DNA from: Paludibacteraceae bacterium
Lineage (GTDB): Bacteria > Bacteroidota > Bacteroidia > Bacteroidales > Paludibacteraceae
Length of the DNA stretch: 33,701 nt
Direction: 5' to 3'
Assembly (NCBI GenBank): GCA_017479885.1
Contig: JAFVBR010000011.1
Location: 1 to 33,701, forward strand
Numbering within the stretch: the first letter of the stretch is position 1; each line of letters begins with the position of its first letter. This document shows positions 3,938 through 9,700 of the stretch, piece by piece. The position numbers and the translations under genes were made by a program. Below the pieces are notes generated by a model. The model worked only from the letters and a program-made list of their open reading frames with translations, was not told the origin of the DNA and did no database searches.

Positions 3938-5422
3938 ATTGAGCTGTATTAGCGTTGCTACAACGGCTGTTCCACTGGCTTCGGTGCCTAAGATGATGGT
4001 CTTGAAGGCATTCTCGCCGGTCATGTATGTGATGAGCGAAACAGTAGAACCGTCGGGCATGATAGCTGTCTCAAGATAGGCTTTCAGAGCACGGTCATAC
4101 TCGCCACCGGAAATAACGTTATATTGCGGCACTTCGCTGCGGTCGATGTCATGGCGCGTAGCCGTGCGTGTGGGCAGATTATAGACAATCACATAACTCA
4201 TGTCAGCTTGTTTCTCTGTCTCAAACGAATAAGCATTGCCTTCTTCATCATAAGCCTGAGCCCACGAGGGGAAGCCGTCCGGCAGTTTTTCTTGCGTGAA
4301 CGTCAAGGTAATGGCATCAAATGTTTCAATGATGGCACCCTCTCCGTTATCTTTCAAATAGGAATAGGTCGAACCCTCAATGCGGTTCGGGTAACCATAG
4401 CCGTATTCGGGCAGCGAGTGTTTCTCGACACAGCGTGTGGCTTTGGCTGTATTGCCATCAAAAGAAAGGGTATAAATAGCCGGTTCCAAACTGCTGTCCC
4501 AACTATAGCCATGGGAAACGAAATACTTGCCGCCGATACAGTGCATACGCGGGTTAGCAGTGCTGACTTCGCTCGGTAGCCCTTGCACAAGATTCGCATT
4601 GTTGCCATTAATAAATGCAGGGTTAGTCGGTATATTGCTATCGTAACTAAGCACAGTGCCTAAATGTCCTTGACCATCTGCCAAAGCATAGGCGATATTA
4701 GCGTGGTAGTCAAGCTTCACAAGGTCCATCGTAGAACCGTTATCGACGAGTTTACGAACGCCACCGCGGTAATGACCTTCCGTCCAATAGAGTTCTTTGC
4801 CGACTTGCGCCACCATACCATATTGCTTGAGGTCATTGCTGGTCGGATTAGCGCTCATCGTGTTGTCGGCGATTACAATCTTGCCTTCCCAGTTCAGTGA
4901 CACAACATCGTTGATATCAAATAACGCGCCGTCTGTCTTGCGAATCATGAAATGGTAATGTCCCGGGCGGTTACGGCTGGCTTCTATCTCATGCTCAACA
5001 TAACCACGCGCACCCTTTGGCAGTGCACTAAGGTCGTCGCAATCATACTGACAGCCATAGAGCCATAAGTAGTCGTCGCCGACCGCAAAGATGTTCTCAA
5101 TGCTCAGACGCAAGGCTTTGGTGTCCATGGTAGAGTCCACTTCGTTGAAATAGAAAATCGCTACGTGCATGTTTCCATCCTCATCCACGGTGTAGAGGAA
5201 TTTGTGGGTTGGCTCATCTTGTTCGCCTTCTGCTGCAGGCATTCTGCGCGGCGCATTAGCGGGATTGCCGCCTTCCTGGACTAACGCAAGGGCTTTGGCG
5301 TTGTGCAAATCAACCCCCTTGAAGGTCATTTTATTACCCGATTGTTCTTCGTCCTGACAGGAAACGAGAAACAGCATGGCAATCACTGCAATGCCAAGTG
5401 CTACAGAAATTTTCTTTGTCAT
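3935..5422 (-). CDS. Putative lipoprotein, first gene of the tandem pair (copy B)
   Basis: The 495-aa protein has an N-terminal hydrophobic signal with lipobox LVSC (Cys22), followed by an acidic stretch DEE, a common pattern for lipoproteins in this phylum. It shares with the downstream gene the early ALALxxxG block, the GDDYLWLYGC motif around residue 120 and the KTDGALF motif, so the two are a tandem duplication that has diverged strongly. No catalytic motif is recognised. The gene is preceded by a long leader of about 210 nt containing a short ORF and several hairpins, so its expression is probably controlled after transcription starts. Function unknown; a surface or periplasmic sensor or binding role is only a guess. 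Confidence 0.85.
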   Translation of the reverse strand: MTKKISVALGIAVIAMLFLVSCQDEEQSGNKMTFKGVDLHNAKALALVQEGGNPANAPRRMPAAEGEQDEPTHKFLYTVDEDGNMHVAIFYFNEVDSTMDTKALRLSIENIFAVGDDYLWLYGCQYDCDDLSALPKGARGYVEHEIEASRNRPGHYHFMIRKTDGALFDINDVVSLNWEGKIVIADNTMSANPTSNDLKQYGMVAQVGKELYWTEGHYRGGVRKLVDNGSTMDLVKLDYHANIAYALADGQGHLGTVLSYDSNIPTNPAFINGNNANLVQGLPSEVSTANPRMHCIGGKYFVSHGYSWDSSLEPAIYTLSFDGNTAKATRCVEKHSLPEYGYGYPNRIEGSTYSYLKDNGEGAIIETFDAITLTFTQEKLPDGFPSWAQAYDEEGNAYSFETEKQADMSYVIVYNLPTRTATRHDIDRSEVPQYNVISGGEYDRALKAYLETAIMPDGSTVSLITYMTGENAFKTIILGTEASGTAVVATLIQLN

Positions 5423-5439
5423 AGAATAAGTGATTTGTT

Positions 5440-5461
5440 CCGGCTCTTACACCTTCGCCGG
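5440..5461 (-). promoter_or_regulatory. Promoter-distal GC hairpin in the lipoprotein leader
   Basis: A 5-bp stem ccggc/gccgg (5440-5444 with 5457-5461, 12-nt loop) lies 18-39 nt before the lipoprotein ATG. It could mask or expose the translation start region. A short stem on its own is weak evidence; it is listed because it is the third of three helices in the same leader. Confidence 0.4.
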
Positions 5462-5493
5462 TCTTGGGTTCTTATATATATATATACACAACA

Positions 5494-5523
5494 AGCGGTA
5501 CTTGACACAGGTCAAGCACCGCT
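5494..5523 (-). promoter_or_regulatory. Strong leader hairpin upstream of the lipoprotein operon
   Basis: A 13-bp stem (5494-5506 with 5511-5523) encloses a 4-nt loop. Position 5500/5517 is an A-C mismatch on the plus strand but a G-U pair in minus-strand RNA, so the structure is complete only in the lipoprotein transcript. The stem begins 1 nt after the stop codon of the leader ORF (5525-5527). No U-run follows, so it is not an ordinary intrinsic terminator. Confidence 0.75.
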
Positions 5524-5524
5524 A

Positions 5525-5593
5525 TTAGTCGGCCGGAGCATGCGAATGGTTAATGTCCCGCGTAGGGGGGGGTGATTCGCTGTATATATGCAT
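5525..5593 (-). CDS. Candidate 22-aa leader peptide
   Basis: ATG at 5593-5591 opens a 22-codon frame that starts MHIYSES, has Pro-Pro-Pro at residues 8-10 and ends NHSHAPAD before TAA (5527-5525). It lies about 40 nt after the predicted transcription start and about 100 nt before the first lipoprotein gene, within the same transcript. Three consecutive prolines are a known cause of ribosome slowing that EF-P relieves. The stop codon directly abuts a strong hairpin, so a terminating ribosome would cover the hairpin's base. I have an unverified impression that short frames ending in NHSHAPAD recur in Bacteroidales. That it is translated is inference. Confidence 0.5.
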   Translation of the reverse strand: MHIYSESPPPTRDINHSHAPAD

Positions 5594-5637
5594 CATGCAA
5601 TAGCATATTCACCTTTATGTTTTTTTCTTAATTTTTG

Positions 5638-5669
5638 CAAAAGTACTGCTAAATTTTAATATGTGCAAG
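5638..5669 (-). promoter_or_regulatory. Promoter of the lipoprotein operon
   Basis: On the minus strand, CTTG (5669-5666), a 20-nt spacer and TACTTTTG (5645-5638) fit the Bacteroidetes promoter consensus. Transcription would start near 5632, giving a leader of about 210 nt before the lipoprotein ATG at 5422. Confidence 0.8.
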
Positions 5670-5999
5670 AATAATCTGAGAAAAGTGTATTTTTTCATAT
5701 AAATCAAGATGTTTGTTATTTTGGGACTCAATCATCAGTGCGTGATTGTGATTATTTTGCTGCGTATGAGCAGAAGCATTCAGGTTGCAAAAGAGAGTGA
5801 GTGAGAATGACAAAATGTAAGCAAAACGGCAGAAAGGGTGACAAAATGTCAAAACGCGGAGTATGCTTACACTGAGCTTGAAGTTAGCATGATTTGAGCT
5901 ACCTCTTAACTTACACTTTGTGCAAGAAAATCGCAAAAACGTGACAAAGTGATTCCAGGGCTTTTCGTGTATCTGCGTTTAGAGGATATTCTGTGTCTG
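5670..5999. other. Intergenic region with repeated TGACAAAATGT motifs
   Basis: This gap of about 330 nt lies between the kdsB stop and the lipoprotein promoter. TGACAAAATGT occurs at 5808-5818 and again at 5839-5849. In the second copy it is a palindrome, TGACA-AAA-TGTCA (5839-5851), and a looser copy, TGACAAAGTGA, is at 5942-5952. The string tgtgcaagaa occurs near 5663 and near 5920, and small hairpins such as caatca/tgattg (5729-5748) are present. A 95-codon minus-strand frame here has no recognisable product and I do not call it. Confidence 0.5.
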
Positions 6000-6749
6000 T
6001 TATATATTGTGTGTTCGGAGGAATTGTTCGGCACGTATGAGGTCGGCAGGTGTGTCGATGCCTATAGACTGAATGCCGGTGACAGCGACCTTAATCTGAT
6101 AACCGTTTTCAAGCCAACGCAGTTGTTCGAGCGATTCCGCTTTTTCGAGCGGGCTTTGCGGGAGACGGGTTATCTGAGCCAGAATATCGGTGCGGTAGGC
6201 ATACATACCCAGATGTTTGTAGAATGTGTGGTTGCGGAGCCAGTCGCACTGAGGAACACCCCTGAAGTAGGGAATGACGCTTCGAGAGAACCAGAGAGCA
6301 TTGCCGCTTTGGGAAGAAAAGACCACTTTGGGTGTGTTCGGGTTGAGCAGGTCGTCGAGTGTGTCAGTCTCAGTGAAGGGCTTGACAAGTGTAGCAATCT
6401 GTGCGGGGAAACAGGCCTTGATTGCCTCTATCTGTTCGGGCCGCACAAAAGGCTCGTCGCCCTGTATATTGATAACCACATCAGCCTGTTTTCCGTAGCG
6501 AAGATATGCTTCGTAGCAGCGGTCGGTACCGCTTCGGTGCTCGGCAGAGGTCATAACGACATTGCCTGAGAAAGCGCGTACGGCATCGAAGATGCGAGTG
6601 TCGTCGGTAGCGACCAGAACGTCATCAAGCGCTTTTGATGCCTGACGATAAACACGTTCAATCATTGTAGTGCCTCCGATGAGGGCAAGGGGTTTGCCGG
6701 GGAAACGCGTAGAGGCATAGCGGGCAGGGATGATACCGATGAATTTCAT
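6000..6749 (-). CDS. kdsB: 3-deoxy-manno-octulosonate cytidylyltransferase (CMP-Kdo synthetase)
   Basis: The 249-aa protein has the family length and motifs: the nucleotide-binding N-terminus PARYASTRFPGKPL (8-21), EHRSGTDR (70-77) and NIQGDEPF (94-101). It transfers CMP from CTP to Kdo, the activated sugar needed for the lipopolysaccharide inner core, and acts in the cytoplasm. It starts 19 nt after the mfd stop codon with no promoter between, so it is probably co-transcribed with mfd. I see no obvious terminator immediately after it. Confidence 0.97.
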   Translation of the reverse strand: MKFIGIIPARYASTRFPGKPLALIGGTTMIERVYRQASKALDDVLVATDDTRIFDAVRAFSGNVVMTSAEHRSGTDRCYEAYLRYGKQADVVINIQGDEPFVRPEQIEAIKACFPAQIATLVKPFTETDTLDDLLNPNTPKVVFSSQSGNALWFSRSVIPYFRGVPQCDWLRNHTFYKHLGMYAYRTDILAQITRLPQSPLEKAESLEQLRWLENGYQIKVAVTGIQSIGIDTPADLIRAEQFLRTHNI

Positions 6750-6768
6750 ATAGCAGGTGTAAATGTTA

Positions 6769-9700
6769 TCAGTTTGACGGGACAGACTTGATTACGTTGA
6801 TGAGATTGAGTGCACCCTGAATGGTTCTGACCTGGTCGATTTCAATAGATTTCTTTGTTTCTGACTGGCGGAAGCGGCAGCGTGCAGGGCGCTGAGCCAC
6901 ATACTGCAGAATCTTGCCGAACTCGGGCGAATCGGAGTAGGCGGGAGTGATGTTAGAGGGCAGATAGATAATCATCTTATCGAACTTGAGCACCACTTTC
7001 TCTATTCCCAGAGAAATGCATGCCCAGCGGAGTTGCACAACCATAAGTAGTTCTTCGGCTTTCTGAGGCAGAGTGCCGAACCGGTCGATAAGGCGTTTCT
7101 TGAACTCAAGCAGTTCGCTGTCGTTGTGCAAGCCGTCGAGTTCGCGATAGAGGTTGATTCGTTCGGAGATGTTTTCAATGTAGTCCTCGGGGAAACCTAA
7201 TTCGAGGTCGGAGTCGAGTTGGCAGTCATTAACCCATTTGCCTGCATTGATGCCGAAGCCGACGGTAGTGACTTCATTCTGAAAGACATCGCTGAACTCT
7301 TCCTGTTTGAGTTCGAGTACAGCTTCGGAAAGAATGCGCTGGTAGGTTTCGTATCCGAGGTCTGCAATGAATCCGGACTGCTCGGCACCCAGCATATTGC
7401 CTGCACCCCGGATATCAAGGTCCTGCATGGCAATGTTGAACCCTGCACCGAGGTCTGCAAAAGTCTCAATAGCATGCAGACGCCTGCGTGCATCAGCAGT
7501 GATGAGTTTGAGTTCGGGCGCCACAAGGTAGCAATACGCCTTACGATTCGACCTTCCGACACGTCCTCTCAACTGATGCAAGTCGCTCAGTCCGAAGTGG
7601 TCGGCATGGTTGATAATCATAGTGTTGACATTGGGAATGTCCACGCCGGACTCGATGATTGAAGTTGAGACGAGCACATCGTACTCATAGTTGATGAAGT
7701 CGGCAAGAATCTCCTCAACCTGCTCGGGCGGCATTTGTCCGTGAGCGCAGACGACTCTTGCTTCGGGGCATAGGCGACAGATTTTGTTTTTTACAGTTTC
7801 CAGACTCTGGACTCTGTCGTTGACGACAAACACTTGTCCGTTACGGTTGATTTCTTCCTGAACCGCCTCCTGAATGATATCTTCGTCAGCGGGAGTGATG
7901 AGTTCGGTCTGAATAGGATATCGGTTGGGTGGAGGAGTGTTGATGACGCTGAGGTCGCGTGCTCCGAGCAGAGAGAACTGCAAGGTACGCGGAATGGGAG
8001 TGGCAGTGAGAGTGAGAGTATCAACATTCACTTTAATCTGGCGAAGTTTCTCTTTGGTGGCGACACCGAACTTCTGCTCCTCATCGATGATGAGCAGTCC
8101 TAAATCTTTGAACTTCACCTGTTTGCCCACCAGTTTGTGAGTACCGATGAGAATATCGATTTCTCCTTTGAGCAAGCGCTCGAGTATATCTTTGGTTTGC
8201 TTCTGGTTTTTGGCTCTGCTGAGATATTCGACCGTGACAGGCATATCTTTGAAGCGCTCCCTGAAGGTGTTGTAGTGCTGCAGGGCGAGCACAGTAGTAG
8301 GCACCAGAACCGCAGTCTGCTTACCATCGGAAGCGGCTTTGAATGCAGCACGCATGGCTATCTCCGTTTTGCCGAATCCTACATCGCCACAGATAAGGCG
8401 GTCCATAGGTACAGGCGACTGCATGTCGTGCTTGACATCGAGAGTGGCTTTCTGCTGGTCGGGAGTGTCTTCGTAGATGAAAGATGCTTCAAGTTCGTGC
8501 TGCAGATAGGAATCGGGCGAGAACCGGAATCCTTTTTCCTGACGGCGCTGAGCATAGAGTTGGATAAGGTCGCGGGCAATATCCTTCACTTTCGCCTTGG
8601 CACGGTCTTTCATGCGTTCCCACTGACCGGAGCCGAGTTTTGAAATATGCGGCGGTTCGCCGTCTTTGCCCTTGTATTTGGAAATGCGGTGCAGTGAGTG
8701 TATGCTTACAAACAGAATGTCGTTGTCACGGTAAGTAAGTTTGATCATCTCCTGCATTTTTCCGTTGACAGGAGTACGAACGAGGCCTCCGAAACGACCT
8801 ATGCCATGGTCGGTATCGACCACATAGTCACCTATCTGCAGCTGGTTGAGTTCTTTGAGTGTGAGCAATACTTTGCCTTTACGCGCTTCGTCGGCGCGCT
8901 GCTGGACTTTGTGGAAGCGCTCGAAGATCTGATGGTCGGTGAAGCAGCAGATGCGTGCATCGGCATCAACAAAGCCCTCGTGAAGCGTTTTGTCAACGGC
9001 AATGAAAGTGAGGTCCGCCTCTTTCTCAGCAAAGATGGCCTGAATGCGGTCTATTTGCTTTTTGGAGTCGGAGAGTAGGTAGATACGGTAGTTGTCGGCA
9101 ATATACTGCCTGAAACTGCCGATGATGAGGTCGAAGTTCTTGTGGTACAAGGGTTGGGGGGTGGTGTGGTAGTCGATTCTGCTATATGAGGGCAAAACCG
9201 ACTTCTGCGCAATCTCAACAGTGCGGTAAGAGACAAGAGCTTGATACACTGCCTCTGCGTCTATGGTCTGACTGACATTGTCACGGCTTTGGATGTAACT
9301 CTCGAGTTTGAATTTTACCAGAGAGAGGTCGTCTGCCACGATGACGGAGTCGGCGGGCAGATAGTCGAGCAGGGTAGCGGTTTGTGTGCTGTCTCGATTA
9401 ACCGAAGGTATGATGCTGACCTGACTGAGTCTGGATTTGGAGAGCTGTGTCTCGATGTCGAAAATACGTATTGAATCGATCTCATCACCAAAGAAATCAA
9501 TACGATAAGGCTCCTCGTGGGAGAAAGAGAAGATGTCAACTATTCCTCCCCTCAAAGCGAACTGCCCGGGTTCGTAAACAAAATCCACACGCACGAAACC
9601 GAGTTCTACCAATTGGCGGGTGAGTTTGTCGATTCCGGTTTCGTCGCCTTGGTTGAGAGTGAGAGTTTGAGTGGCAAGAGTGTGCTTGGCAGGAACAGGG

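Follow-up and report, generated by a model that had tools for sequence, protein, structure and literature searches.

A poly-C leader with a covarying hairpin upstream of surface-protein genes in a genus of Paludibacteraceae: a candidate phase-variable attenuator

What governs two lipoprotein-like genes that are separated from their promoter by a leader of about 210 nucleotides (nt), in which a short open reading frame (ORF) ends just ahead of a stable hairpin? The question is raised by the minus strand of a 33,701-nt stretch of a Paludibacteraceae bacterium (GenBank assembly GCA_017479885.1, contig JAFVBR010000011.1, positions 1 to 33,701), referred to here as the window. An earlier note, based on the window alone, had proposed that translation of a 22-codon ORF from ATG 5593, which reads MHIYSESPPPTRDINHSHAPAD and stops 1 nt ahead of the hairpin, controls hairpin folding and thereby the two lipoproteins, with consecutive prolines slowing the ribosome. 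Promoter, ORF and hairpin all lie on the minus strand where it had placed them (Table 1), and the promoter is one that we take to be of the Bacteroidetes type. What the note missed was a run of eight cytosines (C8) and a second frame that crosses this run and stops well before the hairpin. Judging from relatives of this leader, we consider it reasonably likely that the element is a phase-variable attenuator, in which slippage of the C tract would act through transcription attenuation.

A recurring layout of ATG, C-run, about 48 nt, a hairpin of 12-22 base pairs (bp) and a gene was found in the genus of the window. Searching 101 genus genomes at the DNA level recovered two leaders with 71-74% identity across ORF and hairpin, and a covariance model built from these two and the window matched 65 of 178 genus genomes at E<=1; the 19 matches at E<=1e-5, in 13 genomes, include the model's own three sequences and three more from the window's genome, and the weaker matches were mixed, some not being leaders. 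Among 50 model matches that were read, the constant feature was an ATG frame that reads [IF]TPP, or something close to it, on entering the C-run, and it is this frame, not the one chosen by the earlier note, that recurs. The motif WTTACCCCCCC occurs in 133 of the 178 genus genomes, and from the matches listed we drew a sample by this motif only, with no selection for hairpin or ORF (130 distinct sites, of which 30 were automatic loci and 100 fetched stretches). An open ATG at most 45 nt upstream lay in the frame WTT ACC CCC at 61 of the 130 sites, versus 18 and 6 for the other two frames. When 129 of these sites were divided by the presence of an in-frame ATG within 99 nt, a hairpin scoring at least 24 and starting 40-70 nt past the ACC was present at 41 of the 67 sites that have such an ATG and at none of the 62 that lack it, while shuffled downstream sequences reached that score at any place in 3 of 330 cases. 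TAnnTTTG was present 20-110 nt upstream of 26 of 43 leaders versus 9 of 62 C-run sites lacking the ATG.

For further comparison, sample and model matches were combined after 13 of the 50 model matches had been dropped for missing the C-run pattern, being either interrupted tracts (L034, L057; L numbers denote loci, G numbers genomes) or non-leaders; the 130 sites and 37 matches yielded 149 rows once repeats of one site had been collapsed, and L080, the same locus as L173, was removed, reducing 61 leaders to 60. Seventeen of the 60 come from the hairpin-containing model, a bias from which the hairpin-place test above is free. Removal of leaders at least 75% alike left 52.

The hairpin is supported by both folding and covariation. 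In minus-strand RNA it forms 13 of 13 pairs (-21.3 kcal/mol) versus 12 pairs on the plus strand, where an A-C mismatch replaces the thirteenth (-17.2 kcal/mol), the asymmetry that the earlier note had described; none of 200 shuffles was as stable on either strand, and the whole 210-nt leader RNA folded better than 199 of 200 shuffles. A pattern scan of 4000-7500 returned this hairpin as its one terminator-like site, but shuffles averaged 3.0, and the terminator pattern alone is therefore no evidence. Across 51 distinct sequence-aligned hairpins, 98.9% of pairings at the 13 window pairs were standard, versus a mean of 83.3% (maximum 85.6%) when the 3' letters were dealt anew and 28-50% when the register was slid; because pairing was the criterion by which these hairpins were picked out, the percentage is inflated, but the variety of pair types has no such cause. 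Six types occur at one stem position, with G-U frequent in the minus-strand sense; compensating changes, for which the earlier note had suggested looking, are present. In 41 of 61 leaders, at least six of the ten bases that straddle the end of the hairpin are T.

Tract length determines where the leader ORF ends relative to this hairpin. In the window (L036) the stop lies 26 nt before the hairpin at C8, 12 nt inside it at C9 and 1 nt before it at C10, as also at C7; the frame singled out by the earlier note is the one that the leader ORF enters at C7 or C10. Both an early-stopping phase and a phase reaching the hairpin are present in 51 of the 52 leaders. Phases stopping at least 15 nt before the hairpin number none in no leader, one in 32, two in 19 and three in 1, where shuffles predict 14.4, 44.3, 34.7 and 6.6%, respectively, and 44 of the 73 early stops fall at -24 to -30.

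The window layout is the same as that of the Streptococcus gallolyticus pil1 leader, and on this ground we infer an attenuation logic. Ribosomes starting at 5606 would enter the C8 tract, to which replication slippage would add, or from which it would remove, C's. At C8 the ribosome would stop short of the hairpin, which would then form and end or lower transcription ahead of the lipoprotein genes; at C7, C9 or C10 it would cover the 5' arm, keeping the hairpin open and allowing RNA polymerase to continue. The analysis accordingly predicts low expression for C8, the early-stop phase in which the window itself stands, and high expression for C7 and C9. Frequent switching of the tract within a strain, termination at the hairpin and the assignment of the ON phase are all presumed parts of this scheme. 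If it is true, the state of any one locus could be read off from its count of C's alone, a prediction open to testing with metagenome reads, and consensus metagenome-assembled genomes (MAGs) would conceal ON and OFF states.

Conservation of the tract bears directly on the main alternative, sensing of proline or EF-P, which we hold to be unlikely: ribosomes would slow at Thr-Pro-Pro and uncouple from RNA polymerase, the hairpin would form, and expression would track EF-P or charged tRNA-Pro. A search with TTYAAYTTYACNCCNCC, which leaves Thr and Pro codons free and covers the NFTPP subtype rather than the RITPP subtype of the window, gave 68 matches in 43 of 178 genomes and none in the reversed control. 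All 68 read ACCCCCCC, the first Phe codon being either TTC or TTT, which indicates that the run of C's itself is kept, beyond Thr-Pro-Pro, although other proline codons would serve stalling equally well. Nor would stalling account for tract lengths that differ among copies 92-98% identical, or for the replacement of the first proline by histidine in L034 and L057. In its favor are the [FI]TPP of the conserved frame, L069, which retains Ile-Thr-Pro-Pro by using ACG CCC CCA, and a report, in the part of the article available, that PPPPPP before an intrinsic terminator lowered expression in Escherichia coli without EF-P (PMC5021804). L069 and the in-frame-ATG sites without a hairpin weigh slightly against slippage-driven attenuation and raise the proline explanation. 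Stalling is thus less likely as the main signal, but a Pro-Pro role is possible and could operate alongside slippage.

Tract length ranges from 7 to 12 C's across relatives and differs between near-identical copies, each locus being known from one consensus sequence. Within a single genome, G499, L173 (C9) and L174 (C8) are 98% identical; in another, G498, L132, L165 and L166 have C7, C9 and C8, and they belong to a 92-97% identical group with L214 (C9) and L215 (C7) of G410. These five loci encode a small protein with one hydrophobic stretch by eye, and tract length places the near-identical gene copies in different frames, assembly errors being possible: L166 alone has its downstream ORF in frame with the leader ATG, and the other four contain no Met until residue 122 at the earliest. 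Proportions of nonsynonymous differences among the five (pN 0.016-0.048) lie well below those of synonymous differences (pS 0.14-0.25), from which it follows that the out-of-frame copies are probably made at some time. Further out-of-frame relatives (L136, L242) have earlier Met residues, and L128, L148, L150, L160 and L201 carry related proteins in frame. A Sel1-type label for these small membrane proteins was dropped, since Pfam gave no match for the six scanned.

The low pN would also be expected under programmed ribosomal or transcriptional frameshifting, by which a fixed share of ribosomes would enter the other frames at the C-run and tract length would matter little. Runs of C are slippery, which favors this explanation as well. 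A constant length would be expected of a recoding site, whereas near-identical copies have 7, 8 and 9 C's, and we regard frameshifting as improbable. More doubtful still is a structured RNA element, for example a ligand-binding one, in which the C-run would be a pairing strand and the ORF incidental. A covarying hairpin is what such an element would show, and a helix comparable in strength to one flanking the window tract occurs near the tract in 54% of the 52 leaders versus 12% of shuffles; the bias of the ATG frame, the restriction of the hairpin at its place to sites with that ATG, the variable tract length, the shift in position of the small helix between subtypes and the lack of an Rfam match argue against it. 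Very improbable is the absence of any regulation, with a common 5' region simply copied along as surface genes duplicated: some copies are near-identical, but 52 leaders survive removal of those at least 75% alike, and compensating changes accompany the variation of the stem.

Several observations weigh against a phase-variable attenuator. The T's following the window hairpin are broken (TGTTGTGTATATAT; six in ten, in runs of at most two), so termination there may be only partial. The tract is interrupted in at least four relatives (L034, L037, L057 and the aforementioned L069). All tract lengths come from single consensus genomes, many apparently MAGs, in which length errors are possible, and the out-of-frame copies were read for Met (ATG) starts. 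The phase found in the assembly is an early-stop one in 36 of 60 leaders versus 28.7 expected at random. Of the 67 in-frame-ATG sites, 26 have no hairpin at its place, genes fused in frame (L128, L160, L201, L246) among them. Codon periodicity over the 30 nt before the tract is weak (diversity 0.60 at third versus 0.55 at first and second positions), and selection on the peptide upstream of the tract was set aside on the same weak periodicity. Finally, the attenuation model does not account for the recurring NQ..[FI]TPP or the small helix.

The wide spread in Bacteroidales that the earlier note had suspected was not borne out. At 58 WTTACCCCCCC sites outside the genus (a set that includes two loci from the same family and skips sites less than 60 nt from a locus end), the ATG frames numbered 6, 6 and 9, and a pattern of C-run plus stem occurred in 12 of 35 genus genomes versus 5 of 165 other genomes of the family, where the 6 matches were not leader-like by eye. 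Of the eight named records that contain the strict pattern, five carry the label Paludibacteraceae, all of them ruminant-linked, and three Bacteroidales. Frame bias, hairpin placement and the counts outside the genus together indicate that the unit is real and, within this sampling, confined to the genus of the window. An order-wide leader was rejected on the ATG frames at those 58 sites, of which the four with a hairpin scoring at least 24 at 40-70 nt (L084, L092, L283 and L307) have no in-frame ATG. In several genomes of other families of the order, WTTACCCCCCC exceeds its reversed control (28 versus 6 in G363, 11 versus 0 in G232), with no leader layout in the sites read. The peptide ending NHSHAPAD, which the earlier note had suspected of recurring in Bacteroidales, is ruled out as a conserved peptide, as a degenerate pattern for it occurs in 2 of 393 genomes of the order, the window's included, and the one other place shows no such leader in its surroundings by eye. 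What survives of the earlier interpretation is a leader ORF beside a hairpin, recurring in relatives; its choice of ORF, its peptide and its breadth do not.

The genes downstream mostly look secreted, a shared gene type being among the things that the earlier note had suggested checking. An ORF of at least 60 amino acids follows the hairpin within the stretch examined in 47 of 60 leaders, and by a crude rule 41 of these 47 are signal-peptide-like versus 52 of 186 control ORFs. Proteins of 13 relatives were searched against Pfam, NCBIfam or both, and every domain named is a surface-protein domain: BspA leucine-rich repeats (L069), DUF285 or PARCEL repeats (L043, weakly L038), Big_2 with BACON (L064, L065), a Listeria-Bacteroides repeat (L078), a beta-helix repeat (L080) and a type IX secretion system (T9SS) sorting tail (L042); the remaining proteins of the 13 had no match in the libraries. 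The two window lipoproteins matched no family in Pfam or NCBIfam. An attenuator of amino-acid biosynthesis was rejected on the grounds that the window genes are lipoprotein-like with no family match and that relatives carry surface-protein domains. The same cassette, standing before many genes of the genus, most encoding a signal peptide, and each with its own tract, would generate combinatorial ON and OFF states of the surface. With somewhat less assurance than for the attenuator itself, we lean toward a genus-wide phasome in these gut (largely rumen) Bacteroidota, built on one portable poly-C leader and hairpin cassette before dozens of unrelated surface-protein genes, in which slippage and translation-coupled termination would set a random combinatorial surface, and of which a subset would be cassette-gene fusions with a translated hairpin.

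Table 1. Features of the leader and its downstream genes in the window
Feature	Position	Strand	Details and basis
Promoter-like region	5638..5669	-	TTG 5668-5666 and TACTTTTG 5645-5638; from sequence
Leader ORF, conserved frame, MLLHDAYIQRITPPYAGH*	5550..5606	-	ATG 5606, stop TAA 5552-5550
Poly-C tract, C8, within leader ORF; proposed slippage site	5565..5572	-	Sequence and relatives
ORF frame of the earlier note, ending NHSHAPAD	5525..5596	-	ATG 5596 or 5593, stop 5527-5525
Helix GCGAAT/ATTCGC flanking the tract	5580-5575 with 5547-5542	-	Folding
Terminator-like hairpin, 13 bp	5494..5523	-	Pattern scan, folding, covariation
Second stretch of the 5' untranslated region (UTR), CCGGC/GCCGG, with lipoprotein gene start	5405..5475	-	Also conserved at loci lacking the poly-C leader
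First lipoprotein gene, 495 amino acids	3935..5422	-	Lipoprotein by eye
Second lipoprotein gene, 486 amino acids	2444..3904	-	Lipoprotein by eye

Other elements of the locus were also compared. At gathering score, Rfam found only tRNA in the whole window and no known leader family, and for 5300-5750 it gave a single chance-level match far under its cut-off. A helix TGCGAAT/ATTCGCA surrounds the tract in one subtype and directly follows it in another. Loci L004-L008 share the UTR stretch (CCGGCGAAGGTGTAAGAGCCGG up to the start codon) at 80-85% identity. In L004 and L006, both inspected, a different leader with no C-run lies upstream of it; this alternative leader replaces the poly-C cassette and has a common stretch around ATATTGGAGTCTATGGGAGTGGAAGCCCGATAATACCAATAT.

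Some C-run sites depart from the typical layout. L246 encodes an in-frame protein (L246:292-795) with an AraC-type helix-turn-helix domain (PF12833) and a hydrophobic N-terminal stretch; it begins MFNFTPP, encoded across the same tract, and may itself be phase-variable. On the strand opposite the C-run in L127, L164 and L243, a poly-G tract encodes GGGK near the N-terminus (hand translation), preceded in all three by K-S-A-N, possibly representing another tract-bearing gene family. Some of the C-run sites without an ATG (L191, L239, L249, L213) are immediately preceded by a dyad like TTGATAATCAA.

How does this candidate compare with known systems? In the trp and pyrL leader-peptide attenuators of E. 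coli, ribosome position decides whether the terminator forms. The available text of one study likewise treats pyrL as such an attenuator (PMC5021804). Ribosome position would govern terminator formation in the window leader too, which differs in having no regulatory codons tied to downstream function. Phase variation in Bacteroides is presented, in the part of a review available, as DNA inversion that switches surface structures stochastically, and that text contains neither 'leader peptide' nor 'attenuation' (PMC11868660). Stochastic surface switching in Bacteroidales, as far as that text describes it, is the common ground, but the switch proposed here is a leader homopolymer and involves no inversion. 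Homopolymer contingency loci, such as those of Neisseria, Helicobacter and Campylobacter, carry a homopolymer of C or G early in an ORF, whose frame sets expression. The small membrane protein copies resemble this classical ON/OFF switching within an ORF, whereas most members here carry the tract in a leader ORF distinct from the cargo, which has a start codon of its own.

The closest precedent is attenuation-like phase variation of pil1 and pil3 in S. gallolyticus through repeats in the leader, described in the portions available of Danne et al. 2014 (PMC3894217). There, out-of-frame changes in GCAGA number (22 copies in pil1 and 13 in pil3 of UCN34) shift the pil1 leader stop from 39 or 49 nt before the terminator, both figures appearing in the paper, to 4 nt before it or inside it, and transcription rises; isolates whose stop precedes the terminator by 28 nt or more behave like the mostly low parent, and those stopping just before it or reading through it are mostly high (PMC3894217). 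The window shares a repeat tract in a leader ORF, a terminator-like stem-loop downstream, surface genes and stop distances comparable to those given in the available text. It differs in that pil1 has a pentamer in a Gram-positive species, whereas the genus of the window, in Bacteroidota, has many loci with tracts of 7-12 C's; the leader sequence is unrelated, the fully read window leader holds no GCAGA repeats, and its switching effect is a predicted one. A phase-variable leader peptide acting via attenuation is thus a kind already known from S. gallolyticus. Among the matches listed in a literature search that left subscription journals mostly outside, no title or abstract described a homopolymer leader attenuator in Bacteroidota, and none of those matches showed the hairpin family, the use of a homopolymer, the occurrence in this phylum or the spread over many loci. 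If the reading is true, relatives of Bacteroides would possess a second route to phase variation besides DNA inversion, and the logic of pil1 would have an independent occurrence in another phylum.
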